The translations under genes and the position numbers were made by a program. A stretch of DNA of 40,908 nucleotides. Origin: an uncultured Bacteroidota bacterium. Lineage in GTDB: Bacteria > Bacteroidota > Bacteroidia > Flavobacteriales > Flavobacteriaceae. This document shows positions 1,522 to 21,306 of this stretch, one piece after another. Numbering within the stretch: the first letter of the stretch is position 1; every line of letters begins with the position of its first letter. The stretch lies in contig CABYFY010000013.1 of the NCBI GenBank assembly GCA_902518355.1, positions 1-40,908 of the forward strand, read 5' to 3'. The notes beneath the pieces are model-generated. The model saw only the letters and a list, made by a program, of their open reading frames with translations. It was not told the origin of the DNA and ran no database searches.

Positions 1522-3669
1522 TTATTCGCTTCCGTCTAATCCTCTAACCTTTAACAATGGCTCTATGACAGGTTTTCTGCCTCTAAAATCTACGAATAAA
1601 TCCATAGCTTCTTCAGTTGAACCCATCGAGTATATACTAGATCTCAATTTTGAAGAAAGATTTGGATCAAAGACATCTCCTGCTTCTTTAAATGCTTCAA
1701 ATGCATCAGAATCAAGAACGGCAGCGTGAACATAGCTATAATAACCTGATGAGTATCCACCAGAGAATATGTGAGCAAAATATGTGGTTCTATATCTTGG
1801 TGCTATTTCTCCAATCAATCCAACTTTTTTCATAGATTCAGATTCAAACTTATTTGCGTCTTTAAGCTCATCATCTGCAGAAATTGTATGCCAATCCATA
1901 TCTAATAATGAAGCAGCTAAATATTCCGTATTAATAAATCCTTGATTGAATTTAGAAGCATTTAATAATTTTTCAATTAATTCATCAGGAATTGGTTCAC
2001 CAGTCTCATAGTGTGTGGCAAAAGATTTTAATACTTGAGGCTCACTTGCCCAGTGTTCAAGTAACTGAGAAGGTAATTCAATAAAATCTCTTGGACCAGA
2101 TGTACCTGCCATACTTCCATATTTCACATCGGTTAAAGTACCGTGCATCGCATGGCCGAACTCATGAAATAATGTCACCACGTTATCAAAACTTAATAAA
2201 GCTGGATCATCACCAACAGGCGCAGGGAAATTACATACATTCACCACAATTGGGCGTTCTCTTCCGTCAAGATTTGACTGTCCCTTAAAACTACTCATCC
2301 AAGCTCCACCACGTTTATTAGACCTGGTAAAATAATCTCCGATAAAAATTCCTAAATGACTACCGTCCTTATCTGTAACTTCCCATATTCTTGCATCTGG
2401 GTGATAAAGATCTATGTCAAAAATTTCAGTAAAGTTTAATCCCCATAATTTATTGGTGGTATTAAAAACACCCTGAAGTACATTATCTAAAGATAAATAG
2501 GGTTTAATAGCGGATTCATCTAAATCATATTTTTCTTTACGAACTTTTTCAGAGTAATGCCACCAATCCCATGCAGCTACTTTAAAATCATGGCCTTCTG
2601 AATCAGCAACAGCTTGCATATCAGCAACCTCAACCTTGGCTCTTTTAACAGCTGGTTTCCATAGTTTATACAATAAGTCATATACTTCCTCTGGAGTTTT
2701 TAGCATGTTATCATCTAGGATAAAATGAGCGTGTGTTTTATATCCCATGATTTGAGCTCTTTCAGCACGGAGTTTAGCAATTTGAGCAGCAATTTCCTTG
2801 TTGTCTGTATCATTATTATTATCTCCACGCATCACATATGAATTATATAATTTTTCTCTCAAATCCCTTCGCGTTGATTCTGTTAAAAAAGGATACATAC
2901 TACTTCTGTGTGGAGTAAAAACATATTTGTCATTGTATTTATCTTTTTCTTCATCAGACTCAGCTGCATCCATTTTCTGTGAAGCTGCATCAGCTGCTGC
3001 CGCTATTACTCCTTCGGATAAACCTTCTAAATCTGATGCTTCCAAAATAAGTTCAAAACCATTTGTTTCTGCTAAAAGGTTTTGACCAAAAGAAGTTGAT
3101 AGACCAGAAATTTTTGAATTAATCTCAGATATTCTTTCTTTCTGATCTTCACTTAATAATGCACCACTACGTACAAACCCCTTTCTTGTATCATTTAACA
3201 ATTTAGTTTGTTTTTTGGTCAAATCAAGATTTTCTCTGTTTTGCCATATTGCATTAACCCTATTAAATAAACCTTCATTTAAAGAGATTTTATCATAGTG
3301 TGCTGAAAGCATTGGGCTTAACTCACGCTGTAATTCTTGTAATTTAGGGTTGGTATTAGAACTAGCTAAATTTGAAAATACACGTCCTACCTTAGAAAGT
3401 AATTGTCCTGTTCTTTCAAGTTCCTCTATGGTATTAGCAAATGTTGGAGCTTCAGGATTATTGACAATTGCGTCAATTTCTTCAAGATTTTCTTTCATCC
3501 CTTGTTCATATGCTGGCATATAGTGCTCGTCCTTGATGTCTAAAAATGGAGGTACTTCATATGGTGTATTCCATTCTTGGAAAAATGGGTTAATATTTGG
3601 ATCCATCTTTGATTCTTGTTGACAGCTTACAATAAAAAGTAAGGCCGTAATTAAAATTAGTCTTTTCAT
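1522..3669 (-). CDS. dcp: M3 family peptidyl-dipeptidase, lipoprotein
   Basis: A thermolysin-like zinc peptidase of family M3 (Dcp/oligopeptidase A type) that cleaves dipeptides or short peptides. The open frame extends to 3714, but the first 15 codons lack signal character. I chose the ATG at 3669 because it starts a good lipoprotein signal (MKRLILITALLFIVSC, lipobox IVS-C), giving 715 residues. From that start the zinc site HEFGH is at residues 502-506, with His502, Glu503 and His506 in TLFHEFGHAMHG. Further M3 blocks follow, including the C-terminal FSGGYSSGYYSYVHA segment with conserved Tyr and His. The signal predicts attachment to the periplasmic side of a membrane, unlike cytosolic E. 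coli OpdA. It is probably co-transcribed with the HupE-like gene. Confidence 0.9.
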   Translation of the reverse strand: MKRLILITALLFIVSCQQESKMDPNINPFFQEWNTPYEVPPFLDIKDEHYMPAYEQGMKENLEEIDAIVNNPEAPTFANTIEELERTGQLLSKVGRVFSNLASSNTNPKLQELQRELSPMLSAHYDKISLNEGLFNRVNAIWQNRENLDLTKKQTKLLNDTRKGFVRSGALLSEDQKERISEINSKISGLSTSFGQNLLAETNGFELILEASDLEGLSEGVIAAAADAASQKMDAAESDEEKDKYNDKYVFTPHRSSMYPFLTESTRRDLREKLYNSYVMRGDNNNDTDNKEIAAQIAKLRAERAQIMGYKTHAHFILDDNMLKTPEEVYDLLYKLWKPAVKRAKVEVADMQAVADSEGHDFKVAAWDWWHYSEKVRKEKYDLDESAIKPYLSLDNVLQGVFNTTNKLWGLNFTEIFDIDLYHPDARIWEVTDKDGSHLGIFIGDYFTRSNKRGGAWMSSFKGQSNLDGRERPIVVNVCNFPAPVGDDPALLSFDNVVTLFHEFGHAMHGTLTDVKYGSMAGTSGPRDFIELPSQLLEHWASEPQVLKSFATHYETGEPIPDELIEKLLNASKFNQGFINTEYLAASLLDMDWHTISADDELKDANKFESESMKKVGLIGEIAPRYRTTYFAHIFSGGYSSGYYSYVHAAVLDSDAFEAFKEAGDVFDPNLSSKLRSSIYSMGSTEEAMDLFVDFRGRKPVIEPLLKVRGLDGSE

Positions 3670-3776
3670 ATTAGGGTTATTAAGTGAACTAGTAAATATA
3701 GGGCTTTTTGGCATTATTTCTTATAATAATCAACGATGATTAAACAATTAATTTTAAATTAGTTAAGACAATAATT

Positions 3777-4145
3777 ATGAAAAGTTTTCTTTTAGTTTTT
3801 TTAGGTGGTGGTTTGGGTAGCAGTCTCAGATATTTAGTGACAATTGCAATGAACCAATACTCAAAAGTTTTACCATTTGGGACATTTACTGTTAATATAC
3901 TAGGATGTCTGTTGATTGGGCTTATATTAGGATATGCTCAAAAGGAAAATACACTTACATCTAATCAAACACTTTTATTAGCCACTGGGTTTTGTGGTGG
4001 ATTTACTACATTTTCAGCCTTTGCAAATGAGAATTTGGAACTAATAAAAAATGGAGAAATTTTGAATTTTTCCGTTTATACTATTGGTTCCATTTTAGTT
4101 GGGGTTTTGGCTGTTTTTATTGGTTTTTATCTTACCAATCGATAG
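3777..4145 (+). CDS. crcB: fluoride exporter CrcB/Fluc
   Basis: A 122-residue, four-helix protein of the Fluc/CrcB family, which forms dual-topology dimers that let fluoride leave the cell. Diagnostic motifs are GGGLGSSLRYL near the N-terminus, FGTFTVNILGCLLIG (residues 39-53, with the pore Asn) and GFCGGFTTFSAFANE (around residue 74, with the phenylalanine-box residues). A single complete copy fits a homodimer, and no second crcB is nearby. It lies 107 nt from the start of the divergent M3 peptidase. I found no fluoride-riboswitch consensus in that gap. Confidence 0.93.
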   Translation: MKSFLLVFLGGGLGSSLRYLVTIAMNQYSKVLPFGTFTVNILGCLLIGLILGYAQKENTLTSNQTLLLATGFCGGFTTFSAFANENLELIKNGEILNFSVYTIGSILVGVLAVFIGFYLTNR

Positions 4146-4147
4146 TT

Positions 4148-4753
4148 TTAATAGCTTGAAATAAAATTCTTAACCCCTGCCTCTACCCTGAAATTTAATA
4201 AGTTTTCCCTAGGTACAATTGGGCACGAAAAATTTTCATCATAAACACATTGAGGGTTATACGCACGATTGAAGTCAATTAATATTGAATCATTATCATA
4301 TTGATATAAATCGATATATCTACCTCCACCATAAGTTTCATATCCATTGGTTTGATCTAAAAATGGAAGAAATAAATAGTTATCATATTCTTCTACATCC
4401 AAATAATCAAGGTTTTCATATGCAGTTAATGTGTATTTTTCATCATTTAGATTAAATATTAATGAACCGTACTTTCTAAAGTCAGCAGGTGTGTCTGTGG
4501 TTGTTTTCATTTTAAAAGGAGGGCTATCAGGGGTTTCTTGAATTTTAGCATAAACAACATATAACGAATCAAATTCAAAAAAATCAAGTCCTCTGAAATT
4601 TTTCAAATCCCTTGGCTTTAATGGTGAGACAGAGGCATCTTTAAAATAATTATTAACCTGCTTTTGATAATCTGTCAAATTAAAATCTTCATACCTCTTT
4701 TCACCTCTGCAAGAAAAAAATAGACAAAAGATAAAAATTAACACTATTCGCAT
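4148..4753 (-). CDS. DUF1684 lipoprotein
   Basis: A 201-residue protein with a lipoprotein signal ending in LFFSC (Cys15) and the DUF1684 signature YGGGRYIDLYQ, DFNRAYNPQCVYD, SCPIVPRENLL, followed near the C-terminus by a VEAGVK motif. The clustered Cys residues in the NPQCxYDENFSCP block are typical of the family. Its function is not established. The signal suggests it acts in the periplasm or at the outer membrane. Its stop lies 2 nt from the convergent crcB stop, so the two messages must overlap. The gene is divergent from the M14 carboxypeptidase, with 80 nt between the starts. Confidence 0.85.
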   Translation of the reverse strand: MRIVLIFIFCLFFSCRGEKRYEDFNLTDYQKQVNNYFKDASVSPLKPRDLKNFRGLDFFEFDSLYVVYAKIQETPDSPPFKMKTTTDTPADFRKYGSLIFNLNDEKYTLTAYENLDYLDVEEYDNYLFLPFLDQTNGYETYGGGRYIDLYQYDNDSILIDFNRAYNPQCVYDENFSCPIVPRENLLNFRVEAGVKNFISSY

Positions 4754-4833
4754 TCCGTAAAATTAAAAATATACTTCAAAAACAAATCAATTAATTTTAA
4801 TTATTAAATTTATAATTCTTCAAAATTAAGATT

Positions 4834-7356
4834 ATGAGATTTACAATTATATTTTTTGCATTTATTATCAGCCTGAATACAATTACGGCCCAGGACTATT
4901 TTTTAGAAAATAATGGTCCATATGATGAAAACATCCAAAGTCCAGAAGAATTTCTTGGTTATAAAATTGGATTTGAACATACACGGCACGATATGATTGT
5001 AGCCTACTTCAATTATTTATCAAATGTTTCAGAAAAAGCCAACCTCATTAAATATGGAAAATCTCATGAGGGAAGACATTTAATTATGCTTGCTATTTCA
5101 TCAACTGAAAATTTGAAAAACCTAGACAAAATAAAAAGAGAGCATCTTAAATATACAATTCCAGGTGAAAAAATCGAAGTTGATGGAACTCTTCCTGTGA
5201 TTATAAATTTAGGATACAGTGTTCACGGAAATGAGCCATCAACATCAGAAGCTGCAATATTAGCAGCATATACACTAGTTGCATCAAATAATTCCAAAAT
5301 AAAAAAATTGATATCAAAATCCATAACTTTTATTGATCCGACTAAAAATCCTGACGGCAGAGATAGACATTCACAGTGGGCAAATAGGTACAAATCAATT
5401 AATCTTGTAGCTGACAGTAATGATGCTGAACACAATGAAGCTTGGCCGGGGGGTAGGACGAATCACTACTGGTTTGATCTAAACAGAGATTGGTTATTAG
5501 CAATTAATCCTGAAAGCAGAAGCAAATTGAATTGGTATCACAGCTGGTATCCTAACGTTGTTGGAGATTTTCATGAAATGGGAACAAATAGTAATTATTT
5601 CTTTGAGCCAATGAAAAGAAATGCATCATTAAAGCCATTGATACCAGATGAAAACTATAGTGTTTTAAGTCCAATATTTGCAGAATACTATGTAAAAGCA
5701 CTTGATAGTATTGGTTCCTTTTACTACACAAAAGAATCATTTGATGAAACTTATCCTGGTTATGGTTCCTCATACCCTGATGTACAAGGTGCTGTTGCAA
5801 TACTATTTGAACAGGCAAGCTCAAGAGGACATTTACAAGAAACTAACTATGGTACAATGTCATTTGAATTTGGAATAAGAAACCAATATTTATCAAGTAT
5901 AGCTACTGTTGAGGCGGCTGTTGATAATAAATTATTATTGAGAGACTATCAGAAAAGATTTTTCAATTCATCAGTAAATGAATTCAAAAATGAAAAGATT
6001 AAAGCTTATGAATTTGGTGATATGTATGATCAAAACAGAAACAAAGCTTTCATTGATAAATTATTAATTCATAATATCAAAGTATATAACAGCAAAGGAA
6101 AATTTGTTGTACCTGTCAATCAGCCACAATCCAGAATGGTCAAAAATTTCTTTGAGACACATAGTAAATACGTTGACAGTGTATTCTATGACGCATCAGC
6201 TTGGAGTGTTTCAAATATGTATAATATGAAATCAAAAGAACTTAAAAGTTTTTTTGGTGAATCTGAAATTAGAAGTGCTAAAGACTTTGTGAAAAATTTA
6301 AAGCCAAAAAAGTCTAAATATGCTTACATACTAGACTGGGATGATTATAACTCCCCTGCCGCATTGAATCACTTACAAAAAAATGGGATTATAACATACT
6401 CAGCATTCAAACCATTCACCTTAAAAGTTAATAACACAACCTCATTAAAGAAATTTAATTATGGATCAGTTTTAATTCCTGTGAGTAAGCAAAATATATC
6501 CCCTGATAAGTTATTTGATATTATAATCGAAATGCAAAATAAATATGAAGTTCCTGTTTATAATTCAGAATCGGGCTACAGTGTAAGTGGAATTGATTTA
6601 GGAAGCAATAATTTCAGAATTAATAAGCCTGTTAAGGTTGCTTTATTAGTTGGAGATGGAATCAATGCGTATGAAGCTGGAGAGGTTTGGCATCTGCTAG
6701 ATACAAGAATCGGTTTACCATTAACTAAATTAAAACTTAGTCAATTTCCGGGCATATCATTAAAAAAATATACGACTCTGATAATGGTTTCAGGTTCTTA
6801 TAAACAATTAGGAGAAGATGAAGTAAAAAAGATAAAAAAATGGGTTGAGGAAGGAAATACCCTAATTACAATAGCCAGAGGTTCAAGTTGGGCAATCAAT
6901 AGTGAATTAATAAATGAAAGTTTAGTAGAGTCAAAAAAAGATTCAAATTATTCAAGAAAAAGATATGTTGATTCAAGTGAATATATTGGAAGGGAAAAAA
7001 TTGGAGGTTCAATCCTAAGTATTGATCTTGATTTAACTCACCCCATTTCATTTGGCTACAACGATAATTCTATTCCAGTGTACAAGAATAATAATGTGTT
7101 TATAAATAAAACTAAAGATGAATACTCATCTGTTGCTGTCTATTCTGATGGCTTTCACATTGATGGATATATTTCTGAATTAAACAGAAAAAATTTTATA
7201 CCTGGTGCCGCATCTATTGTTATTTCGAAAATTGGTGCTGGCCGGGTTGTAGTATTTGCTGACAATCCTAACTTTAGGGGTACTTGGTATGGAACAAATA
7301 AATTATTTCTGAATGCAATATTTTTAGGCAATAATATTTCAGTACCAACTGATTAA
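4834..7356 (+). CDS. M14 family zinc carboxypeptidase, secreted
   Basis: An 840-residue exported peptidase. A signal peptide (residues 1-19, ending TITAQ) precedes an M14 domain whose zinc ligands are visible: HGNE (His131, Glu134) and His247 in GDFHEMG. A plausible catalytic glutamate is Glu345 in SFEFGIRNQY. The N-terminal GKSHEGRHLIML block is also typical of family M14. The C-terminal third (about 600-840) carries a glutamine-amidotransferase-like fold (KVALLVGDGINAYEAGE, then VEEGNTLITIARGSS), as in other large Bacteroidota M14 proteins. It probably degrades peptides outside the cytosol and feeds on marine protein. It converges on the DUF4396 gene with a 6-nt gap. Confidence 0.88.
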   Translation: MRFTIIFFAFIISLNTITAQDYFLENNGPYDENIQSPEEFLGYKIGFEHTRHDMIVAYFNYLSNVSEKANLIKYGKSHEGRHLIMLAISSTENLKNLDKIKREHLKYTIPGEKIEVDGTLPVIINLGYSVHGNEPSTSEAAILAAYTLVASNNSKIKKLISKSITFIDPTKNPDGRDRHSQWANRYKSINLVADSNDAEHNEAWPGGRTNHYWFDLNRDWLLAINPESRSKLNWYHSWYPNVVGDFHEMGTNSNYFFEPMKRNASLKPLIPDENYSVLSPIFAEYYVKALDSIGSFYYTKESFDETYPGYGSSYPDVQGAVAILFEQASSRGHLQETNYGTMSFEFGIRNQYLSSIATVEAAVDNKLLLRDYQKRFFNSSVNEFKNEKIKAYEFGDMYDQNRNKAFIDKLLIHNIKVYNSKGKFVVPVNQPQSRMVKNFFETHSKYVDSVFYDASAWSVSNMYNMKSKELKSFFGESEIRSAKDFVKNLKPKKSKYAYILDWDDYNSPAALNHLQKNGIITYSAFKPFTLKVNNTTSLKKFNYGSVLIPVSKQNISPDKLFDIIIEMQNKYEVPVYNSESGYSVSGIDLGSNNFRINKPVKVALLVGDGINAYEAGEVWHLLDTRIGLPLTKLKLSQFPGISLKKYTTLIMVSGSYKQLGEDEVKKIKKWVEEGNTLITIARGSSWAINSELINESLVESKKDSNYSRKRYVDSSEYIGREKIGGSILSIDLDLTHPISFGYNDNSIPVYKNNNVFINKTKDEYSSVAVYSDGFHIDGYISELNRKNFIPGAASIVISKIGAGRVVVFADNPNFRGTWYGTNKLFLNAIFLGNNISVPTD

Positions 7357-7362
7357 ATGGTT

Positions 7363-7782
7363 TTAATGACATCCGTATCCCCATTTTTTTAATCTGTAAT
7401 AGTTATATGGAAGTGGAGTTATAAATCCAGCAAATAACATAATTGGAATAACCCACCAAGTTAACATAGCACCCCCCGTTAAAAGAACATCTATTAAATT
7501 CATGGAAACTTCCATTGCTATCATACTGATAAAACTCATACCAATTGCTACTTTAAAAGCCTCTTTCAAAATCATTTGTCTTGAAAGAATAAATGTTTCC
7601 AATAAAATACTTGTTATTAAGCCATTGACGATTGCTAAACTCATTACTTGCCAGGTTAACAAAGTGTGTTCAATGTTCTGAAAGTAAAATATGGTTCCAA
7701 AATCACCAATGCTACATCCCAACAAACACCATAGTGTATTAACAGATGCCTTACTCCAAGTATGTTTACAATACCAATTCAT
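7363..7782 (-). CDS. DUF4396 membrane protein
   Basis: A 139-residue protein with four predicted helices. The motifs fit DUF4396: a first helix containing GCSIGDFGTIF, a third helix with SMIAMEVSMNLID and a C-terminal PLPYNYYRLKKWGYGCH. The conserved Cys and His near both ends could bind metal, but this is not demonstrated and the function is unknown. It lies 50 nt downstream of pyrF on the same strand. An exact TAGTTTTG (minus strand, 7793-7800) sits just before its start but lacks a TTG partner at the right distance, so it may be read with the purine/pyrimidine operon. Confidence 0.72.
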   Translation of the reverse strand: MNWYCKHTWSKASVNTLWCLLGCSIGDFGTIFYFQNIEHTLLTWQVMSLAIVNGLITSILLETFILSRQMILKEAFKVAIGMSFISMIAMEVSMNLIDVLLTGGAMLTWWVIPIMLFAGFITPLPYNYYRLKKWGYGCH

Positions 7783-7832
7783 TTTAGTAAATCAAAACTA
7801 TAAAGACAGAAAGATTAAATAACTTCATAAAT

Positions 7833-8654
7833 TTATTTTCTTTCTGATAAAATAGCACTCATTTGAGCTTGAAGAATCATGGCTTGATTTGCAGCAGCAA
7901 TCGCAAAGTCATCGTCTGTAGAAGCATAAATAATTGACCTTGATGAGTTAACAATTATCCCAATATTATCGTTAAATGCATGTTTACAAACTTCGATTAA
8001 ATCTCCACCCTGGGCACCTATTCCTGGAATCAATAAAAAGTGATCAGGTATTTCACTTCTTATCTTATTGATAAAATCAGTTTTTGTTGCGCCAACAACG
8101 TACATCATATTATTATGATTACCCCACAATTTTGAAGATTTTATCATTTCCATAAAAATGAAATCACCATTTGAAGTTTTGAGCTGAATATCCTCAGCTC
8201 CAATATTTGAAGTTAAACCAAGTAAAATCGATATCTTATTTTTGAATTCCAAAAATGGTTTCACTGAGTCCGAACCCATATATGGATTGATAGTTAGGCT
8301 ATCAAAATTCATTTCTGTAAAAAATGATTGAGCATACATTTTACTTGTATTACCAATATCACCCCTTTTAGCGTCAGCTATTGTAAATATTTCTGGATGG
8401 TTATCATTAATATAATCAATGGTTTTTTTCATGGATTCCCAACCATTTACTCCATGAGACTCGTAAAATGCAGTATTTATTTTATATGCAACACAGTATT
8501 TATTTGTGTGATCAATAATTGACTTATTAAAAGAAAAGATCGGATCATCTTCATTTAATAAAAATTTTGGGATTTTATCTATGTCGGTGTCAAGACCAAC
8601 ACATAAAAAAGAATTTTTATTTTTTATTTGAATTATTAGATCCTCTAATTTCAT
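7833..8654 (-). CDS. pyrF: orotidine 5'-phosphate decarboxylase, type 2
   Basis: Decarboxylates OMP to UMP, the last step of de novo pyrimidine synthesis, in the cytosol. The 273 residues match the longer type-2 form found in Bacteroidota. Motifs in order are FLCVGLDTDIDKIP near residue 17, the catalytic DAKRGDIGNTSK (Asp-Lys-Asp array), TINPYMGSDSV and LIPGIGAQGGD at the phosphate-binding loop. Its ATG directly follows the prfA TAA with no intervening base, which suggests translational coupling. It is the third gene of a purM-prfA-pyrF operon. Confidence 0.96.
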   Translation of the reverse strand: MKLEDLIIQIKNKNSFLCVGLDTDIDKIPKFLLNEDDPIFSFNKSIIDHTNKYCVAYKINTAFYESHGVNGWESMKKTIDYINDNHPEIFTIADAKRGDIGNTSKMYAQSFFTEMNFDSLTINPYMGSDSVKPFLEFKNKISILLGLTSNIGAEDIQLKTSNGDFIFMEMIKSSKLWGNHNNMMYVVGATKTDFINKIRSEIPDHFLLIPGIGAQGGDLIEVCKHAFNDNIGIIVNSSRSIIYASTDDDFAIAAANQAMILQAQMSAILSERK

Positions 8655-9722
8655 TTAGTTATTTGCTTTTAATATTTCAGAATTTTCAGCTAACATTAGC
8701 TCATCAATTATTTTTTGAATATCACCGTTTATTATTTTTGGTAAATCATACAGAGTTAAACCAATTCTATGTTCCGTGACTCTACCCTGAGGATAATTAT
8801 ATGTTCTAATTTTTGCGCTTCTATCTCCAGAAGATACCATACTTTTTCTTTTCAAAGAATCGGCTTGCCTTCTTTTTTCAACCTCTAATTCATATAGTCT
8901 TGTTCTTAACACCTTCAGCGCTTTATCAAGATTCTTGTGTTGTGATTTTTGATCTTGACAACTTACAATAATTCCGGTTGGCTCATGATGTAATTTTATA
9001 GCAGAATAGGTTGTATTTACCGACTGACCACCAGGACCAGTGGATGTAGTTCTTTCAATTCTAACATCTTGCATGTCTAACTCAACATCAAACTCTTCTG
9101 CCTCGGGTAAAACTATTACAGTTGCTGCACTAGTATGTACTCTTCCCTGTGTTTCCGTTTGAGGAACCCTTTGAACTCTATGAACACCAGCTTCAAATTT
9201 TAAGTTTCCATAAACATCCTCTCCATTTACCTCAAATATAATCTCTTTATATCCTCCCGAGGTCCCCTCGTTCAAATCAACCAAATTAACAGACCAATTT
9301 TTAGATTCAGAAAATTTAGTATACATCCTATATAAATCTCCAGCAAAAATACTTGCTTCATCACCTCCAGTTCCAGCACGAATTTCAACAACAACATTTT
9401 TGGAATCGTCAGGATCTTTAGGGATAAGTAAAACCTTAAGATCCTCCTCTATTTTTGGTAGCTCAGCTTCTACTTCTTCTAGTTGCATTTTAGCCATTTC
9501 AATCATTTCATCATCTTTCTCAATTGAAATTATTTCTTGAGCTTCTGATTTATTTGCAATCAAATTTTTATAAACTTCTCCCTTGTCAATTATTTTTTTT
9601 AGGTCTTTATACTCCTTGGAAATCTGAATATATCTTTTTTGATCAGAAATTATATCTGGCTGAATAATTAGTTCGCTTAATTCAGCAAATCTGTTCTCGA
9701 CTAATTTTAATTTTTCTACCAC
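8655..9722 (-). CDS. prfA: peptide chain release factor 1
   Basis: Class I release factor for UAA and UAG stop codons, 355 residues (normal length). The GGQ motif, whose Gln is methylated in other bacteria, is in [14 protein letters not shown]. The decoding PxT motif appears as [18 protein letters not shown]. The N-terminal coiled-coil domain (residues 1-100) is followed by the domain 2/3 boundary near [13 protein letters not shown]. It lies 28 nt downstream of purM and directly abuts pyrF. Confidence 0.97.
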
Positions 9723-9750
9723 TACTTAATTTTTTCAGATCTTATCCAAT

Positions 9751-10935
9751 TTAATAATTAAACTCACCAAATTCTGATTTTATTGTAAGTTTTTTTTCAT
9801 CTGAGCCAACCACTTTTCCGATGATTTTAGCGTCAATATTAAAAGAATTTGAAATGCTAATTATTTCGTCTGCAAACTCTGATTCTACATATAATTCCAT
9901 CCTGTGACCACAGTTAAACACCTTGTACATTTCTTGCCAACTTGTATTAGATTCTTTTTGTATCAACCTAAATAAAAAAGGAACATCAAATAACTTGTCC
10001 TTAATGACATGTAAATTATCATTAATGAAATGTAATATCTTTGTTTGAGCACCACCACTACAATGTATTATACCATTTATATTTTTATTCCCAATTGAAT
10101 TGATAATTTTTTTGATTACAGGAGCATAAGTTCTTGTTGGAGATAAAACCAATTTTCCAGCATCAATATCAACTTCAGTGAATTTTTCAGTCAATTTTTT
10201 TGTTCCAGTGTAAACCAATTCTTCAGGGATATCATTATCGTAACTTTCAGGATATTTTTCAGCAAGGATTTTATTAAATACATCATGTCTTGCTGATGTT
10301 AGCCCATTACTACCCATTCCTCCATTATAGTTAGATTCATATTTAGCTTTTCCGTGAGAGGCTAATCCAACAATAACATTTCCTGCAGAAATTTTTGAAT
10401 TGTCAATTACCTCTTCTTTTTTAATTCTGGCTACAACAGTACTATCAACAATTATTGTTCTAACAAGATCACCAACATCAGCAGTCTCACCCCCAGTCAT
10501 ATGAATATTTATATCACATTGTTTAAGTTCATCAACTAATTCTTTAGTGCCATTAATTATAGCAGAAATTACATCACCGGGTATTTTATTCTTATTCCTT
10601 CCGATGGTAGATGAAAGCATTATATTATCGGTGGCACCAACGCATATTAAGTCATCAATATTCATGATTAAAGCGTCCTGAGCAATTCCCTTCCATACAG
10701 AAAGGTCCCCAGTCTCCCTCCAATACATGTATGCTAAAGAACTTTTAGTTCCTGCTCCATCAGCATGCATAACGATACAATGTTCATCACTTCCAGTTAA
10801 ATAATCAGGTACAATTTTGCAGAATGCATTTGGGAAAAGTCCTTTGTCTAAGTTTTTAATTGCATTATGTACATCATCCTTGGAAGCTGACACTCCACGC
10901 TGTAAATATTTATCTGATGTTTTTGAGCTTGACAT
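9751..10935 (-). CDS. purM: phosphoribosylformylglycinamidine cyclo-ligase (AIRS)
   Basis: Makes aminoimidazole ribonucleotide from FGAM and ATP in purine synthesis. The 394 residues are longer than the roughly 345 of E. coli PurM and match the Bacteroidota variant. Recognisable parts are YLQRGVSASK at the N-terminus, HADGAGTKSSLAY (ATP/phosphate site), MNIDDLICVGA and HMTGGETADVGD, with a C-terminal VFNCGHRMELYV segment. First gene of the purM-prfA-pyrF operon. On the minus strand an exact TACTTTTG (10951-10958) lies just upstream, but no TTG is placed at 17-23 nt, so it is only a half-site promoter candidate. Confidence 0.93.
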   Translation of the reverse strand: MSSSKTSDKYLQRGVSASKDDVHNAIKNLDKGLFPNAFCKIVPDYLTGSDEHCIVMHADGAGTKSSLAYMYWRETGDLSVWKGIAQDALIMNIDDLICVGATDNIMLSSTIGRNKNKIPGDVISAIINGTKELVDELKQCDINIHMTGGETADVGDLVRTIIVDSTVVARIKKEEVIDNSKISAGNVIVGLASHGKAKYESNYNGGMGSNGLTSARHDVFNKILAEKYPESYDNDIPEELVYTGTKKLTEKFTEVDIDAGKLVLSPTRTYAPVIKKIINSIGNKNINGIIHCSGGAQTKILHFINDNLHVIKDKLFDVPFLFRLIQKESNTSWQEMYKVFNCGHRMELYVESEFADEIISISNSFNIDAKIIGKVVGSDEKKLTIKSEFGEFNY

Positions 10936-11207
10936 TGATTAATTTGAACACAAAAGTATTAAACAAAACACAAAAAATTTAGTAAGAAGCCGATAAGATT
11001 TTGAAAATAAAAAAAAAGAAAATTACGTTATTAACAATAAATATATAAAATGCTTAAAAATTGTGATTTTCATATGAATAAAACTTAATAATTAAAATGT
11101 TTATAAAAATATTTCAAAATCAAAAAAAAATTCTCAACGATTTTCAAATTTATTGATATATTATGCATTTATTTTAACGCAATAATTAACTATTATATTT
11201 TTTAAAA
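10936..11207. other. 272-nt divergent intergenic region
   Basis: The longest gene-free stretch in the window, between purM (leftward) and glutamine synthetase (rightward). It is extremely AT-rich with several A tracts. I see no hairpin, no dyad longer than expected and no two-element promoter on the plus strand. A 12-codon frame at 11050-11088 has no support. The length relative to neighbouring gaps suggests it carries the regulatory input for glutamine synthetase, but no operator can be pointed out. Confidence 0.5.
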
Positions 11208-12209
11208 ATGAACAAATCGAAACTAGAGTATATTTGGCTTGATGGATTTAAGCCAACTGCTAGCCTTAGAAGTAAGACTAAAATAATAAGCGACTTTGAC
11301 GGAAAACTTGATAGTTGTCCAATGTGGGCATTTGATGGAAGCTCAACTAGACAAGCGGAAGGCGGATCCTCTGACTGTCTACTAAAGCCAGTCTGTATTC
11401 ATCCTGACCCAGTTAGAAGAAATGGGTTTCTTGTAATGTGTGAAGTATTAAATCCCGATGGATCACCTCATGAATCAAATGGAAGAGCAACCATTGATGA
11501 TGATGATGATGATTTTTGGTTTGGATTTGAACAAGAATATTTTCTTTGGAATCCAGAAACAAACCTACCTCTTGGATTTCCAAAAGATCAAACCCCGCAA
11601 GGCCAATTTTATTGTTCCGTTGGTGGGAAAAATACCTTTGGTAGAGAAATAATGGACAGGCATCTTGATATCTGCTTAGACGCAGGAATTAATGTTGAAG
11701 GTACAAACGCAGAAGTTGCGGCTGGTCAATGGGAATTTCAAACCTTTGCAATGGGTGCAGCAAAAGCGGGAGACGAAATGTGGATAGCGAGATACTTGCT
11801 TGAAAGACTTGCTGAAGAATATGGCTTAGCGATTGAATATCACCCAAAACCTTTAGGTGCAACTGATTGGAATGGATCAGGAATGCATGCTAATTTTTCT
11901 AATACGACATTGAGAACATGTGGTTCTAAAGAAACGTATGAGAAAATATGTGAAGCTTTCAGGCCTGTTGTTAATGAACATATTGCGGTATATGGTGCTT
12001 ATAATGATCAAAGATTAACCGGAGATCATGAAACACAATCAATTACCGAATTTAGTTATGGAGTTTCTGATAGAGGTGCATCAATAAGAATTCCGATTAT
12101 GACGGTTGAAAAGGGATATAAGGGATGGCTTGAAGATAGACGTCCAGCATCAAATGCTGACCCTTATAGAGTTGCCGCTAGAATTATTAAGACTGTCAAG
12201 TCAGCTTAA
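11208..12209 (+). CDS. glutamine synthetase, type II (eukaryote-like)
   Basis: Condenses glutamate and ammonium to glutamine at the expense of ATP. At 333 residues it is a short GSII (beta-Grasp plus catalytic domain), not the 470-residue GSI. Key blocks are MWAFDGSST (residues 39-47), the metal-ligand segment FGFEQEYF (105-112), VEGTNAEVAAGQWEFQ, GSGMHANFS and the arginine-rich SDRGASIRIP, followed by an acidic-basic WLEDRRPAS region. Six Asp (97-102) encoded by a GAT run precede the FGFEQEYF block. The gene is monocistronic, with a clear hairpin terminator 21 nt after the stop. Confidence 0.95.
   Translation: MNKSKLEYIWLDGFKPTASLRSKTKIISDFDGKLDSCPMWAFDGSSTRQAEGGSSDCLLKPVCIHPDPVRRNGFLVMCEVLNPDGSPHESNGRATIDDDDDDFWFGFEQEYFLWNPETNLPLGFPKDQTPQGQFYCSVGGKNTFGREIMDRHLDICLDAGINVEGTNAEVAAGQWEFQTFAMGAAKAGDEMWIARYLLERLAEEYGLAIEYHPKPLGATDWNGSGMHANFSNTTLRTCGSKETYEKICEAFRPVVNEHIAVYGAYNDQRLTGDHETQSITEFSYGVSDRGASIRIPIMTVEKGYKGWLEDRRPASNADPYRVAARIIKTVKSA
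11496..11513 (+). repeat. (GAT)6 trinucleotide run in glutamine synthetase
   Basis: Six perfect GAT units encode Asp97-Asp102 immediately before the FWFGFEQEYF active-site block. The run is in frame, so slippage would change loop length by whole residues without breaking the gene. Confidence 0.9.
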
Positions 12210-12229: not shown

Positions 12230-12261
12230 AAAAAAGGGATTATAATAATAGTCCCTTTTTT
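12230..12261. terminator. hairpin terminator after glutamine synthetase
   Basis: A stem of AAAAAGGGA (12231-12239) with TCCCTTTTT (12252-12260) and a 12-nt loop. The A and T tracts on both sides make it look intrinsic in both directions. It ends exactly where the stop codon of the convergent exchanger gene (12261-12263) begins, so it probably also ends leftward transcripts just past that gene. It is one of two convincing intrinsic terminators in the window. Confidence 0.75.
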
Positions 12262-13199
12262 TATTGTACAAATGCTATATAGATAAAGTATAAGTACATT
12301 GAAAACATTATCAAACCCTTAAAACTGGTTAAATAATTTTTTCGTGGGATTATGGCTAGTATAATTACAATTAATGCAAAAATTAACATCCATATAATAT
12401 CTCTTTGAATTATTTCCTCAGCAATTGGAATCTCTTTAATCATTGCTGTTATCCCAAGGACAGATCCGATATTGTAAATATTTGACCCAATTAAGTTTCC
12501 TACAGAGATACCTTCTTCTTTTTTAGCAATTGCCACCAAGGATGCTGCCAATTCGGGAACACTAGTTCCAATGGCAACAATGGTTACTGAAATAACTGCC
12601 TCACTTATACTAATTTGTTTAGCAAGATTTACAGCTCCATCGACAAGAAATTCAGATCCAAAATAAAGATTAATCGATGAGATAATTAACCATACAAAAA
12701 TTTTAAAATTTGACGTTTTTAATAATTCATCGTCGATACTTCCCTTAAAGTCAAGATTATTGGATTTTTTTATAATAGTTAAAGTAAAAAATATTAATAT
12801 CAAGAAAAGGATTAGACCTTCATATTTTTTCAAAACACTGTCTTGTGATATGAAAAACCACATTAGTAAAGAAAAGAAGAACATCCACGGCCAGTCCCTC
12901 TTATAAAAATAATTATCTACCGTGATTTTCCCAAGAATAGAAATAAGCCCTAGAACTAAGCCTATATTTGCGATATTTGAACCAATTACATTGTTTATAG
13001 CAATAGACGGTGAATTATTTAATGCAGCGTTAACACTAACTATTAATTCCGGCAGTGATGTAGCAAAAGAAACAATTGTCATTCCAATAACAAACTTGGA
13101 AATATTAAATTTCAATGATAATGCTACGGATGATCTCACGATAAATTCACCTCCGACGACTAACAAAAGAAAACCTAAAAAAATGAAGATTATATTCAT
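12261..13199 (-). CDS. Na+/Ca2+ exchanger family antiporter
   Basis: A 312-residue inner-membrane protein of the YrbG/CaCA type with two inverted alpha repeats. The first reads GMTIVSFATSLPELIVS...IGSNIANIGLVLG and the second VTIVAIGTSVPELAAS...IGSNIYNIGSVLG. Each has the acidic residue in (S/T)xPE that coordinates the ion and the GSNI(A/Y)NI helix. It probably extrudes calcium in exchange for sodium, which suits a marine habitat, but K+ or other ions cannot be excluded. Its ATG directly follows the TAA of the endonuclease gene, so the two are one transcription unit despite unrelated functions. Confidence 0.92.
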   Translation of the reverse strand: MNIIFIFLGFLLLVVGGEFIVRSSVALSLKFNISKFVIGMTIVSFATSLPELIVSVNAALNNSPSIAINNVIGSNIANIGLVLGLISILGKITVDNYFYKRDWPWMFFFSLLMWFFISQDSVLKKYEGLILFLILIFFTLTIIKKSNNLDFKGSIDDELLKTSNFKIFVWLIISSINLYFGSEFLVDGAVNLAKQISISEAVISVTIVAIGTSVPELAASLVAIAKKEEGISVGNLIGSNIYNIGSVLGITAMIKEIPIAEEIIQRDIIWMLIFALIVIILAIIPRKNYLTSFKGLIMFSMYLYFIYIAFVQ

Positions 13200-14333
13200 T
13201 TATTTGATAATAATTTTAGAATTTATAACCCTATGATTATTTGAAACTTTTAGTAAATAAATACCACTATTTAAGTTCAATTTTAATGAATTTGTGTTGG
13301 TCGCTTCTCTGCCAAATACTTTTTGACCAGTTAATGAAAATATTTCAATTTTTTCATTTTGAAGTTCTTCCGTAAAATTTAAAATACCATTTGATGGATT
13401 TGGAAAAATAATTAAATCTTCATCAAGGTTAACATTGTTAACACTTAAATTTTCGTTCCAACTTTGACCAATATTTTCTCCCCATAAAAAATTAACCAAA
13501 TTTGGGTGATCAATAAATGGATTCCTGTTTTGTTGAAATCCAAAAATTACCTCATTTCGATTGATTTCAAAGTCATCAACTGGATCATCAAAATGCCATT
13601 GAATTAAGGAAGAAAGCTTCCCTAATATAGGGTCATTATTCCCTGGTGTTGTATAATCAACTAATTCTAAATCAAAACTATTGTTATTATGGTCATAACC
13701 AGGGTCATAACGTACAACCATGTAAAATAATATCCTAGCAATATCTCCCTTTACAAAGTCAGATGGCTCCCAACTATCAGAATCAGTTAGACAGTCTGAA
13801 GCCTCAGAGTGCTGACTACCACCATAATCATAATCTTTTGTTCCTCTAGATGAATTAACAGAGCGATCACTTGGCTTTAAATTATGAACATCAGTGTAGG
13901 CATTATCGTCCTCATCTGGAAAACCATGAGATTTTGGCCAAACATGTTCCCTGTTCCAAGAATTATTTTGTGTACCATTTCCGTTTTCATACTGGGAATA
14001 ATTCCCACTGCCATCTCTGTATCCCTTGTCTTGTGATCGACCTGTATACACAAGTATCATATTATCATGATTTTCAGGATCTTGATCTGATAATTGTAAA
14101 ATATTCCATGTATCAGTTGATGATGAAGTATATGGAAAAACTGTATGGTTTGAAATTATTTGATGCAGTGCCTCTTTAAGTTGCTCAGATGATTTACCAT
14201 TAGCCTCTTGGTAATAGTCTTGAGGAATACTTGATTGAACTATACCATACGTTGGATCAAAGGAGGATCCAAAATCTGACTGAGAATAGATGTTTGATAC
14301 GAATGTAACAAATAGTATAATTAAATATCTCAT
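13200..14333 (-). CDS. secreted endonuclease I with T9SS sorting domain
   Basis: A 377-residue exported nuclease. Signal peptide 1-17 (ending IYSQS) is followed by an endonuclease I domain with the catalytic WNREHVWPKSHGF and DVHNLKPSDRSVNSSRG segments (histidine-metal nuclease). The C-terminal 75 residues are a type A sorting domain of the type IX secretion system (FPNPSNGILNF, then FSLTGQKVF and LNSGIYLLKV). It is therefore expected to cross the outer membrane and degrade extracellular DNA for nutrients. It directly abuts the exchanger downstream. A TATCTTTG only 5 nt before its start is too close to be its promoter. Confidence 0.92.
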   Translation of the reverse strand: MRYLIILFVTFVSNIYSQSDFGSSFDPTYGIVQSSIPQDYYQEANGKSSEQLKEALHQIISNHTVFPYTSSSTDTWNILQLSDQDPENHDNMILVYTGRSQDKGYRDGSGNYSQYENGNGTQNNSWNREHVWPKSHGFPDEDDNAYTDVHNLKPSDRSVNSSRGTKDYDYGGSQHSEASDCLTDSDSWEPSDFVKGDIARILFYMVVRYDPGYDHNNNSFDLELVDYTTPGNNDPILGKLSSLIQWHFDDPVDDFEINRNEVIFGFQQNRNPFIDHPNLVNFLWGENIGQSWNENLSVNNVNLDEDLIIFPNPSNGILNFTEELQNEKIEIFSLTGQKVFGREATNTNSLKLNLNSGIYLLKVSNNHRVINSKIIIK

Positions 14334-17295: not shown

Positions 17296-20200
17296 TTATC
17301 TAACTATAATCTTAAAGATAATTTCACCAGATCTTAATAAGTAGATCCCGGAGGTTAAATTATTTGAAAAAATTTCGGTTATTCCGCTGTGAAATTTGGA
17401 AGAAATTTTCACAGATTGACCTGTTAATGTAAATAATTCAAACGATTCATAACCTTTGGTATTTATAAGTTTGATAATACCATTTTTTGAAATAGGGTTT
17501 TGAGTTAGTTTAATATTTGGAATTTGAATTTCAGGATTTGAAAGATTCTCTTGAAAGTACTGAGCACCAAATTCAAAACTCTCATTTCCGATGATTTGGC
17601 CAATCAATCTACCTGGAATATCGTCAATATATGGATGAATTCCTCCCCAAATTCTAGAAAGACTACATTGATCTGCAGCATCTTTATACGAAACCCACTG
17701 TAATTCGATATCTTGACTCGGGCCATCTTCAAAAACTAAAAATTCTTTTTGTTTAGCCAAATGTGTTTCCAATCCTCCAGGAAAATATGGACTTCCAGTG
17801 AAATTTTCTAACATTTCAGCAGCTGCTCTGGAATATGTTGAATGTCCAGAAACGTAACCTGCAAAGTTTGGTGTAACAAAAGTTGGTCTTTGATATGGCC
17901 ACCAATTATCAGCTAAAATCCAGTCGACTCCTGCAAAATCTGTTTCAGTATTTTCCACATAAGTATGTCCCTTCCATGTGTAAAGCTTTATTTTACCAAC
18001 ATTCTCATTATCATCTCCTGCAAGCGGATCGCCCGCTTGAACAATTTCTATTAGCCCATCAATTAATTCAAAGCCATTTTCATTGTAATTATCTAGTGAC
18101 GAATCTGTTCTTTGTCCTTGTTCAGAAAAGTATCTTATTGCAGAAATTGGTCGTATATAATCATACCAGCCTTTAATTCCCCAAACAGAGATTGCAACAT
18201 CATGCATAACTCCTCCTAAAACAAAGTAAGACTTTACATCCCACTCTAAATCTGATAATTCATCTCCTTCACCCTGAAATTTCTTTTCTAATAAGGGGTT
18301 ATCACTTACTGAATTTAATAAAACAAACCAATGTCCTGGAGGTGTTTCAGAATCAGGCCCATCTGCCCAGTATTCAGCAAGTACTCTGGTATAGTCTCCT
18401 CTTTTTACATTCTGAATTTCATATGAATCGTTTGTAACAGGGTTTAACGAATATCCCTGACTTGTGTCTCCACCGTCATAATAATTATAAAAACTTGTGA
18501 AATCTGAAAAATCTGTTGGATAAGTGTCATCATTTACATTTCCCAATGAATTAGGTGAAATATCCCAAATAGTATCATCTTCTGGTGAGAGGTGGGATCC
18601 CCAAACTGAAACCATTGAAAATGACTCAATAAATAATTCATTTGTTTGTTCATTATCATCAATTAAAGGTGGAGTCCCTGGATCGTGATAAACTTTGTAT
18701 GTGTTTCCATCCCTTTCAAATTCTGTTAAATCTTCATCATTTAATCCAAATGGCCACACACTTCCCCATTCTGCACCCAAAAATTCCGGTGTAGTTTCGG
18801 ATAATATATTTCCACTTTGGTCAACAAAAATATCTAGTGATAATGGCTGCCATCTATTTGGATTTGTTACAGTCGGATTGCCGGCAAAAATCGGTGCAAG
18901 TGGTTCATTTACAGGCTCATAGTGCTGATTTATATAATCAGATTGCTCATTCGATCCATCAAGTAATCCATATTGAATGTACTGTTCAGCAATAAAGTTT
19001 CCAAGACTTGAAGAATTTGATTCGTAGCCGTCAGATTCTAGAAAGTTTATATCTAGTCCCAGTATATTCATTAATGAATTAGCCTTTGCGATAATTCTGT
19101 CACTTCCAGGTGAATTATTAAATCTATGTACTATAAGTCTGTATGCTGCGTAACTTATTGAATTTATATCATTTATATAATTTGTGTCTTCATTTACAAA
19201 TCCGTCAAATTCTGAAGTAAAACCATGTAAACTGTTTCCGATAAGGTAAGTTGAGCCTTTATCGTTAACAATAGACCACGCATCATACATAGCGGCACTG
19301 ACATGAAATAAATTTCTTGCATGCACAGTTGGCCTAGCTAAATCATTTCTTATTGAAAATAATAAGACCTCATTCCAAAGTCTTGCAACTGAAAAACTAT
19401 AATCTTCATAAGAAATCGGAAGTTGAAGTGAAACATCTAGCTCAACCTGACCTGTGGAGCAATCGTCATTAGTAGCAACTATTGACACCACGCCAGATTC
19501 TGCCACATCCCACAAAACTTCAATAGTTGAGGTACCATTACCGGAAATTATAGTTCCGTTTTCAACTTCCCACTCATATGAAATAATTGATTCGTCAATA
19601 TACTCATACAAATGTGTTTCCAGTGGTTGTACTAAGACTTCGCCTAAAATTGATTGAGCATCAATATAGAGACATGAATTATCATCTAATGTTGCTTCTG
19701 GGTTATAGCTACATGATGATTCATCAGTGCATCCTTCAATTTTAATTGCAGTATTATTATTTAATGTTTGTATTCCTTGACCCTCAACAATTTTATAAGT
19801 TGAGTTTGTTTGCAAATTATAGAATGTTTCTTGACCACTGCTGGGCCAAGTAATCACAATACTTGAAATATTATTATTCGCAGCAGCTCCAAAATGTATC
19901 GATTGCAAAGATTGGTTTTGATAACCAGAACCTGTGTACTGTCTAATTTGACTAGTTCCATCCTCAAAATTTAATTGAATTATTGAACCAAGTGCGTCCC
20001 TGTTTGAGGTTGTACCTTGCAAAAATATTTTAACCCATGACCCCATCACCTCATCGGTAAAATAAGTGTCAACAGATTTATTTTCCCAAAGATTTACATT
20101 CAGATTAAAATCTGTTACTAACAAGTCTAAATCACCATCATTATCATAATCAAAAGAATTGACCGATCTACTTTTAGACATTAATGGTGGATTTCCGGAA

Positions 20201-21306
20201 AAATCTCCATATGTAAAATTTATTCCGTTGTTATTAACGAAAAACCTATCATCTTCTGGATTGAAAAAACCATTTGCAACATAAAAATCCTCATATCCGT
20301 CGTGATTGAAATCCGAAAAAGTTACACCCCAAGCCCAATCGGTGTCATATAAATTTGCTTGTTCAGAATAGTTGGTATATGGGGTACTTGCATTAACAAC
20401 ATCCTTTGTATAAAGACTGTTTTCTTTAATGTTTGTAACAAAAAAATCTATATCTAAATCATTATTAAAATCACATGTAGTGAGTCCCATCCCGTCAAAA
20501 GGATCTTCAACTCCATATTCTTGTGCCATTTCAGTAAATCCATTTCCATCTTGATTAATTAAAAGTTGATTAAATTGGTCAAAATCATTGGCAACGTAAA
20601 TATCTGGATACATATCATCATTTGCATATATAGGTAAAGCTGAAAAGCTGTTAGCATTTTCAATTGTTTCACTTAAATTGATTAGCTGAAAGGTTTCATT
20701 ACCTAAATTTTTATATAATTTATTTTGGGATACTTGATTATAATCGGATAAGAAAATATCCAGATAGCCATCTAAATCATAATCTAACCATAATGCGCCT
20801 GCTATATAACATTCCTCACAATATGTTTCAAAACCGGCGGTTTCAGTAATATTTGAAAATGTACCATTTCCGTTATTTTTATACAATTCACTTTGGACTG
20901 CATTTCCTAAAAATAAATCAGGATATCCATCGTTATTAAAATCTCCCCAAGAGGCCGCTAATCTATCACCATGTTCAATTGTATCAAAACTAAAATTACC
21001 CTCTTCATCATAATTAATTAAATCAATGTCATGATTAAGATTTTGGTTGATTCCAGAACTTTCTGTAATATCGATAAAGTTGCCATTATTTGTGTTTTCA
21101 AAAAGACGACTCCAGTATTCTTCTCCATCTTGGGATCTGGCAGATACAATAAATATATCGAGGTCACCATCATTATCATAATCAGCAACAGCTACTCCAT
21201 TATTACCAACCACTCCGTTTAAATCTGAAATGTTTGTAATATTTCTAAACTGCTGTGAATATAAAATATGGGATATAAAAAATATATATAGAAATTTATA
21301 TTTCAA
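17296..21306 (-). CDS. secreted FG-GAP / vanadium haloperoxidase mosaic protein
   Basis: A 1336-residue exported protein. Domains in order: signal peptide (1-17), FG-GAP/VCBS propeller repeats with DYDNDGDLD-type calcium loops (about 25-420), ASPIC/UnbV domain (about 423-510), a short Cys module (GCTDESSCSYNPEAT, about 524-546), a PKD-like domain (about 547-622), a vanadium-dependent haloperoxidase domain (about 627-1242) and a type A T9SS sorting domain (about 1262-1336). The vanadate site is complete: Lys1045 and Arg1052 in KGWYDYIRP, Ser1153-Gly1154-His1155, and Arg1218, His1224 and Asp1228 in SRIWGGIHPYID. It should oxidise halides with peroxide outside the cell, although phosphatase-like activity is possible. 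Last coding gene of a compact minus-strand array. Confidence 0.88.
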   Translation of the reverse strand: MKYKFLYIFFISHILYSQQFRNITNISDLNGVVGNNGVAVADYDNDGDLDIFIVSARSQDGEEYWSRLFENTNNGNFIDITESSGINQNLNHDIDLINYDEEGNFSFDTIEHGDRLAASWGDFNNDGYPDLFLGNAVQSELYKNNGNGTFSNITETAGFETYCEECYIAGALWLDYDLDGYLDIFLSDYNQVSQNKLYKNLGNETFQLINLSETIENANSFSALPIYANDDMYPDIYVANDFDQFNQLLINQDGNGFTEMAQEYGVEDPFDGMGLTTCDFNNDLDIDFFVTNIKENSLYTKDVVNASTPYTNYSEQANLYDTDWAWGVTFSDFNHDGYEDFYVANGFFNPEDDRFFVNNNGINFTYGDFSGNPPLMSKSRSVNSFDYDNDGDLDLLVTDFNLNVNLWENKSVDTYFTDEVMGSWVKIFLQGTTSNRDALGSIIQLNFEDGTSQIRQYTGSGYQNQSLQSIHFGAAANNNISSIVITWPSSGQETFYNLQTNSTYKIVEGQGIQTLNNNTAIKIEGCTDESSCSYNPEATLDDNSCLYIDAQSILGEVLVQPLETHLYEYIDESIISYEWEVENGTIISGNGTSTIEVLWDVAESGVVSIVATNDDCSTGQVELDVSLQLPISYEDYSFSVARLWNEVLLFSIRNDLARPTVHARNLFHVSAAMYDAWSIVNDKGSTYLIGNSLHGFTSEFDGFVNEDTNYINDINSISYAAYRLIVHRFNNSPGSDRIIAKANSLMNILGLDINFLESDGYESNSSSLGNFIAEQYIQYGLLDGSNEQSDYINQHYEPVNEPLAPIFAGNPTVTNPNRWQPLSLDIFVDQSGNILSETTPEFLGAEWGSVWPFGLNDEDLTEFERDGNTYKVYHDPGTPPLIDDNEQTNELFIESFSMVSVWGSHLSPEDDTIWDISPNSLGNVNDDTYPTDFSDFTSFYNYYDGGDTSQGYSLNPVTNDSYEIQNVKRGDYTRVLAEYWADGPDSETPPGHWFVLLNSVSDNPLLEKKFQGEGDELSDLEWDVKSYFVLGGVMHDVAISVWGIKGWYDYIRPISAIRYFSEQGQRTDSSLDNYNENGFELIDGLIEIVQAGDPLAGDDNENVGKIKLYTWKGHTYVENTETDFAGVDWILADNWWPYQRPTFVTPNFAGYVSGHSTYSRAAAEMLENFTGSPYFPGGLETHLAKQKEFLVFEDGPSQDIELQWVSYKDAADQCSLSRIWGGIHPYIDDIPGRLIGQIIGNESFEFGAQYFQENLSNPEIQIPNIKLTQNPISKNGIIKLINTKGYESFELFTLTGQSVKISSKFHSGITEIFSNNLTSGIYLLRSGEIIFKIIVR

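Follow-up and report, generated by a model that had tools for sequence, protein, structure and literature searches.

Why a vanadium haloperoxidase should share one polypeptide with an FG-GAP/ASPIC beta-propeller is the question raised by a gene on a 40,908-nucleotide contig (GenBank CABYFY010000013.1) of an uncultured Flavobacteriaceae bacterium; this whole stretch is hereafter called the window. Comparison of its sequence with those of relatives showed the FG-GAP/ASPIC propeller to be an apparently recurrent partner of vanadium haloperoxidases (VHPOs), either fused to the enzyme or encoded by a neighbouring gene. The explanation that we favour as a whole, with moderate confidence, is a secreted VHPO whose recurrent propeller partner would place predicted hypohalite chemistry at a substrate or surface. 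The gene and its parts are listed below, including the sorting domain of the type IX secretion system (T9SS).

17296..21306, minus strand: whole gene, 1336 amino acids, TTG start
21256..21306, minus strand: signal peptide, residues 1-17, read from the sequence
20032..21249, minus strand: FG-GAP beta-propeller, residues 20-425 (Pfam, predicted model, motifs)
19795..19995, minus strand: ASPIC/UnbV domain, residues 438-504 (Pfam UnbV_ASPIC, E 4.7e-12, 46.1 bits)
19663..19743, minus strand: Cys module (C526, C532, C545), residues 522-548 (conservation and our own hidden Markov model)
19444..19587, minus strand: PKD_6-like domain, residues 574-621 (Pfam, 27.6 bits, cut-off 25)
17542..19401, minus strand: VHPO domain, residues 636-1255 (Pfam, alignment, predicted model)
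18151..18174, minus strand: vanadate motif 1, K1045-x6-R1052 (conserved 82/82)
17842..17850, minus strand: vanadate motif 2, S1153-G1154-H1155 (conserved 82/82)
17635..17655, minus strand: vanadate motif 3, R1218-x5-H1224 (conserved 82/82)
17302..17502, minus strand: T9SS type A sorting domain, residues 1269-1335 (NCBIfam, 24.5 bits, cut-off 23)

An earlier note on this DNA had read signal peptide, FG-GAP repeats, ASPIC/UnbV, Cys module, PKD-like domain, VHPO and type A tail as one 1336-residue chain, and the Pfam and NCBIfam matches bore this out. The TTG start was common to the window gene and all six congener genes inspected. The mature N-terminus is probably Gln18, and the excerpted text of PMC5837995 describes a glutamine after signal cleavage as the rule in Bacteroidetes. 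FG-GAP_3 matched the window protein in seven stretches (E 4.9e-30) that were followed by an ASPIC/UnbV domain over its curated cut-off, which is the pattern of a CRTAC1-like propeller, and five calcium-type D-x-[DN]-x-D-G-x-x-D motifs were located in the propeller at residues 42, 122, 175, 332 and 386. The Cys module was kept in all 16 fused rows displayed in the alignment. Within the enzyme, the Pfam family VCPO_2nd, representing the second helical bundle of VHPOs, matched residues 1126-1224 (E 2.6e-6) with 28 bits, barely above the cut-off of 27, and a DUF6851 match at 671-821 in the N-terminal part of the enzyme stayed under its Pfam cut-off. The C-terminal sorting domain scored over its cut-off, as in T9SS type A cargo, and the window protein is probably a secreted, cell-surface VHPO.

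Conservation of the vanadate site was counted in an alignment of the window protein with 81 VHPO proteins from 80 named loci (82 rows). The window protein contains K-x6-R-P, S-G-H and S-R-x5-H in the order typical of VHPOs, and K1045, R1052, S1153, G1154, H1155, R1218, H1224 and D1228 were invariant in all 82 rows; the complete site described in the earlier note thus stands, with every residue as placed there. W1042 and F1148, which we take to be the counterparts of W350 and F397 of fungal chloroperoxidase, were likewise invariant (82/82). The residue preceding SGH was valine in 67 rows, isoleucine in 11 and leucine in 4, and the spacing from R1052 to S1153 was 101 in 76 rows, 102 in four and 103 in two. 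The valine and the spacing of about 100 residues, previously pointed out as departures from the textbook pattern, are therefore present, but as family rules (82/82) and not as peculiarities, and a novel active-site variant was rejected because both details hold across the subfamily. Judging from the aligned sequences, V, I or L before SGH together with the long spacing marks a large VHPO subfamily. In L048-L050, three VHPOs that are more distant but come from the same bacterial family, SGH follows a threonine and the spacing is shorter. In all rows except the five nearest, the catalytic half was better conserved than the N-terminal half, with 55-60% versus 29-48% identity to the window protein.

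The fusion itself proved not to be rare. Counting distant VHPOs, a VHPO profile match was found in 246 of 397 genomes of the family and in 70 of 296 genomes of the phylum. At least 594 stretches of named genomes fit the search patterns and 584 encoded a relative, of which the best 80 loci were used. Propeller and ASPIC domain were carried by 54 of the 81 VHPO proteins in these loci, including the differently built L128, and 26 were without a propeller; L081 was cut at a contig end, with its Cys and PKD modules still visible. Carriers of the fusion included Winogradskyella, Polaribacter, Wenyingzhuangia, Bizionia, Maribacter, Flavobacterium, Marinoscillum and a Prolixibacteraceae metagenome-assembled genome (MAG). 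The search for the same domain order in other genomes, as the earlier note had proposed, thus found the fusion common among Flavobacteriaceae relatives and present in a few other lineages. In L128, a MAG recorded under Proteobacteria, a single chain of 1760 residues combines two propeller-ASPIC units with a VHPO. A MAG named Algicola, by name a gammaproteobacterium, contains a Bacteroidota-type fusion (L083:4087-8109) that groups with Psychroserpens, for which a misnamed record seems likelier than a transfer. VHPOs of the same subfamily were also found joined to leucine-rich repeat (LRR) and immunoglobulin (Ig)-like domains instead of the propeller (L129:4657-8142) or to MopE metal-binding repeats (L131:5929-9042 and L095:1049-3994). 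No paper on the propeller-VHPO fusion was found among the open-licence PMC papers listed by the searches, and the main text of a 2026 halogenase preprint (PMC12871659) does not mention Bacteroid-, fused or domain architecture.

Propellers encoded by separate genes were found beside propeller-free VHPO genes. All three full-length, propeller-free subfamily VHPO genes from Cognaticolwellia's order and an Aestuariibacter MAG adjoined an ASPIC gene, in three different arrangements: in Cognaticolwellia mytili (L176) the ASPIC gene immediately precedes the VHPO gene, in the Aestuariibacter MAG (L177) it immediately follows and overlaps it by 4 bases, and in G715 (L175) the two genes converge. This neighbour was the sole ASPIC gene in the L176 and L177 genomes (4.5-4.7 Mb); G715 has eight. 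Across 295 genomes of the order, any VHPO match occurred in four and a full-length one in two, and an ASPIC gene was present in seven of 40 genomes tested, three of which had been preselected for a VHPO match (ASPIC gene in two of the three). In G687, one of these preselected genomes, the single ASPIC gene and a distant VHPO gene are about 3.4 kb apart on opposite strands. In Bacteroidota outside the family, an ASPIC gene adjoined the VHPO gene or was at most about 2 kb away in five of 14 propeller-free loci (L199-L202 and L210). The L176 locus (2261-11643) carries on one strand a TonB-dependent receptor, a Trp_halogenase homologue (flavin-type tryptophan halogenase, 427 bits), FG-GAP/ASPIC, VHPO and aldo/keto reductase genes, bringing two unrelated halogenating enzyme types together. 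Two stand-alone FG-GAP/ASPIC genes stand in tandem directly upstream of a fused gene in Winogradskyella marincola (L178:8473-11937), and they fall near the L059 propeller in the tree described below.

A similar pairing was observed for short VHPOs. In L050, two FG-GAP/ASPIC genes precede a short VHPO gene whose product is closely related to the Zobellia iodoperoxidase (4cit, E 6e-211). L191, L193, L194 and L195 showed a comparable pairing, with one intervening gene in L191 and L193, and 4cit was the best match of their VHPOs (E 4e-73 to 4e-152). All five ASPIC-linked short VHPOs tested were thus of the Zobellia iodoperoxidase type (4cit E 4e-73 to 6e-211). In L194 and L195 the iodoperoxidase-type genes occur with SusC- and SusD-type genes and FG-GAP/ASPIC proteins of 1100 residues, possibly as a type of uptake locus; Pfam confirmed the SusC- and SusD-type genes in L195, and in L194 SusD was under the cut-off.

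Co-location was then compared with chance in 35 Bacteroidota genomes outside the family (30 of 31 'same phylum' and 5 of 24 'same class' genomes), which gave 51 VHPO loci after several rows per gene had been merged. Eight of these genomes had been picked before their neighbourhoods were seen and the other 27 were the remaining 'same phylum' genomes minus G975; Flavobacteriaceae genomes, 19 class-level genomes and G975, for all of which ASPIC positions were not obtained, were left out of the count, and the underlying VHPO list, with at most four candidates scored per genome, is not exhaustive. Within 6 kb of an ASPIC gene lay 23 of the 51 loci versus 0.65 expected under uniform placement, a null that ignores operon clustering, and 200,000 simulations of such placement gave at most 6. 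Both types of locus contributed: long-type loci gave 4 of 13 against 0.21 expected, and short-type loci 19 of 38 against 0.43. As a control, ten genomes were examined that had each been chosen for a VHPO-ASPIC pair, a choice that raises the VHPO rate only; 13 of 19 VHPO, 9 of 24 SusD and 0 of 13 sulfatase genes had an ASPIC gene no more than 6 kb away, and six of these sulfatases belong to one G854 cluster. A SusD match was found within 12 kb of nine of the 13 VHPO-ASPIC pairs and nowhere on the contig for the other four. Many VHPO-ASPIC loci look like SusC/SusD-ASPIC-VHPO units.

Phylogenetic trees were built for the VHPOs (97 rows, and a careful tree of 59 rows) and for the propellers (61 rows with 18 fused propellers; the L050 second gene, the L191 first gene and the 504-residue frame of L195 were dropped as short or cut). 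On the VHPO tree the label 'fused' required 2 changes versus 31.5 in shuffles, and the main fused clade received an SH-aLRT support of 100 in the 97-row tree and 93/99 in the 59-row tree. The L128 VHPO grouped with three VHPOs that have a neighbouring propeller gene (98 and 100/98, respectively). In the propeller tree, 17 of the 18 fused propellers grouped with the separate neighbours of L199, L200 (two) and L202 (support 90, unstarred), both L128 propellers grouped with the neighbours of L175-L177 (100) and then with iodoperoxidase-linked propellers (96), and the fused propeller of Snuella sedimenti (L059:4162-8133) grouped with stand-alone tandem propellers of other genomes (100). The L201 and L210 propellers fell elsewhere, and the neighbours are not all of one lineage. 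Uniting all 18 fused propellers in a single clade, a grouping fixed before tree building, was rejected (p-AU 2.6e-28), and so was uniting L128 with the fused propellers other than L059, a grouping picked once the tree had been seen (p-AU 1.1e-7). By its position in the tree, L059 represents a domain replacement, with a propeller lineage different from that of the other 17 Bacteroidota fusions tested. The best reading of these trees is an old gene pair that would have fused on two or more occasions and had its propeller replaced once.

Several observations weigh against a recurrent partnership or against repeated joining. The VHPO tree alone did not reject a single fusion (p-AU 0.70, and 0.215 in the 59-row tree). 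No ASPIC frame was seen in the flanks (at most 6 kb, some contigs short) of 24 of the 26 propeller-free named proteins, among them L116 and L129, whose genomes have one ASPIC gene each elsewhere. An ASPIC neighbour was likewise missing from the other nine of the 14 propeller-free loci outside the family, from the two VHPO genes of L198, from L048 and L049, and, within the stretches examined, from L180, L181, L192 and L196; G542 encodes a distant VHPO but lacks an ASPIC gene. None of nine VHPOs of 469-504 residues (L182-L190) had an ASPIC neighbour either. The ASPIC link is therefore specific to some VHPO groups. Among the unlinked short VHPOs the comparison with the Protein Data Bank (PDB) covers L185 (485 residues), for which NapH-like chains matched best (E 3e-61; 4cit 4.5e-23). 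Nor is the link exclusive, because SusD genes are near ASPIC genes too, and co-location at the iodoperoxidase-type loci may partly reflect the SusC/SusD locus.

These observations lead to the alternative that survives best, an ordinary modular secreted enzyme in which the propeller is an interchangeable adhesive or structural add-on and the genes lie close through shared outer-membrane loci. It draws on the LRR, Ig and MopE domains attached to other members of the subfamily (L129, L131 and L095), on the many members without a propeller, on the SusD genes near ASPIC genes and on the lower conservation of the N-terminal half. However, it gives no reason to expect propellers encoded on their own next to VHPO genes in several lineages, or repeated joining with different propeller lineages, and four of the 13 VHPO-ASPIC pairs had no SusD match on the same contig. 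We regard this alternative as rather doubtful and prefer the secreted VHPO with a recurrent propeller partner.

The activity of the catalytic half was considered from predicted structures of the VHPO domain (626 residues, 31 sequences, pTM 0.90) and the N-terminal half (629 residues, 27 sequences, pTM 0.83). The former showed the two-bundle VHPO fold. Its best Foldseek match in the PDB was XhnO11 (9l8x, E 4.5e-16, TM 0.54 by query and 0.72 by target); other matches were NapH1 (3w36, 2.1e-15), fungal VCPO (1vnf, 1.5e-11) and the Zobellia vanadium iodoperoxidase (VIPO; 4usz, 1.2e-9), and all 17 matches with E <= 0.001 were VHPOs or named homologues. The highest TM-scores were 0.55 by query and 0.73 by target and the identity was 14-17%; given the low TM by query and the low identity, the predicted domain resembles these structures only remotely and carries large insertions. 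The model of the N-terminal half matched murine CRTAC1 (9etn, E 2.6e-26, TM 0.72 by target), with the next match at 8e-10. Profile models and structure prediction, the check suggested earlier, thus agreed on both halves of the chain, and the earlier interpretation is partly supported overall.

The nearest known systems share parts of this architecture. CRTAC1 (cartilage acidic protein 1) has the propeller and ASPIC fold and matches the window protein in sequence (E 3.3e-6), but is an animal protein of 586 residues (9etn chain) without an enzyme domain. The Zobellia galactanivorans iodoperoxidase (4cit/4usz) has the VHPO fold and SGH of the window protein, whereas its 458-residue PDB chain lacks a propeller and a T9SS tail; its profile matches the window's family across the motif regions only. 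NapH1, NapH3 (8cxl) and XhnO11, chains of 478-531 residues, are top fold matches and have, in the alignments displayed, a tryptophan three residues ahead of the lysine, as in the window protein. The chloroperoxidase of Curvularia inaequalis (1vnc) has the two-bundle fold of the window's VHPO domain and, to our knowledge, no propeller, ASPIC, PKD or T9SS tail.

The presence of NapH3 among the top structural matches is a further point against the favoured explanation. Its PDB title names a rearrangement reaction, and the fold is therefore no proof of halide oxidation; the window protein could accordingly be a VHPO homologue without halogenating activity, in which vanadate serves another reaction. 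We consider this improbable, as SGH is present in the window protein and in the Zobellia VIPO 4cit, unlike the SGS of 9l8x and the SGF of 8cxl, and W1042 and F1148 are also invariant. Because the histidine of SGH is kept as in the iodoperoxidase, we infer that free hypohalite release is favoured over a selective halogenase. A PAP2-superfamily phosphatase is very improbable: the three motifs are common to VHPOs and class A acid phosphatases, and L099 gave a weak PAP2 match (16.9 bits, under the cut-off), but the whole 626-residue model aligned with two-bundle VHPOs (E to 4.5e-16), the single-bundle acid phosphatases matched at E 0.56 or worse across 108-134 columns only, and VCPO_2nd cleared its cut-off.

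The genomic setting of the gene was conserved. A VHPO domain was present in 12 of 20 congeneric genomes (assemblies 56-86% complete), with 11 complete frames and one (L037) cut by a contig end. A YbjQ-like gene adjoined the fused gene in all 12 congener loci, where other window neighbours recurred too, placing the fused gene among syntenic chromosomal genes. The frame is not a chance one, because the gene and the same YbjQ-like neighbour recur in these congeners, and for the same reason we do not favour a gene inserted recently or gained horizontally within the window's genus. The flanks within about 6 kb encode YbjQ-like, SOUL and DUF4920 proteins, a small TonB-plug protein, endonuclease I, a Na/Ca exchanger, glutamine synthetase, a rhodanese/metallo-beta-lactamase protein, PrmA, triosephosphate isomerase, a transporter, a MauE/DoxX protein and three proteins without a Pfam match. 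No adjacent peroxide source or operon was recognised in this part of the window, where smaller frames were not scanned. The Na/Ca exchanger and the T9SS-tailed endonuclease I (window 12261-13199 and 13200-14333) lie 3-4 kb off and recur near the gene in several congeners. The source genome has one further ASPIC match (G000:C9), and a second VHPO of the window subfamily was not found in this assembly, which is 80% complete.

Enzymes of the VHPO family bind vanadate and use hydrogen peroxide to oxidise halide to hypohalite. By membership of this family, the C-terminal domain of the window protein would bind vanadate and oxidise a halide with hydrogen peroxide to hypohalite; our guess for the substrate is iodide or bromide, which are the easier halides. 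The chain would be exported and attached by the T9SS, and a propeller loaded with calcium would keep the enzyme at a substrate or on the cell surface, letting the short-lived hypohalite arise at its place of use. The propeller may, as the earlier note proposed, anchor the enzyme to polymers; the comparison itself shows the two modules to be recurrently paired. An attempt to read the halide preference from the sequence was given up, since the excerpted text of PMC11871015 places halide specificity outside the conserved site.

A broader and more tentative possibility is that FG-GAP/ASPIC proteins are a general calcium-dependent partner subunit of two large VHPO groups, the window subfamily and the iodoperoxidases, and may keep hypohalite chemistry local to the cell surface. 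Arenibacter C-21 requires glucose, oxygen and calcium to take up iodine, a haloperoxidase has been proposed for this uptake, and the genome contains at least five homologues of 4USZ (PMC5064120). One Zobellia iodoperoxidase is upregulated on a brown alga, according to the excerpted text of PMC9296495. If FG-GAP/ASPIC proteins were such a general partner, there would be a molecular reason for the calcium and peroxide-source need of Arenibacter C-21 iodine uptake, and the SusC/SusD-ASPIC-VHPO loci would serve the uptake and handling of halogens. The need of bacterial iodine uptake for calcium becomes testable by single-gene deletion, and the pairing gives a lead to the function of bacterial FG-GAP/ASPIC (CRTAC1-like) proteins. 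Bacterial VHPOs are candidates for driving iodine and bromine chemistry in the sea; the recurrent propeller partner gives a concrete handle on them, and the pairing could help to explain how marine bacteria handle iodine and bromine.

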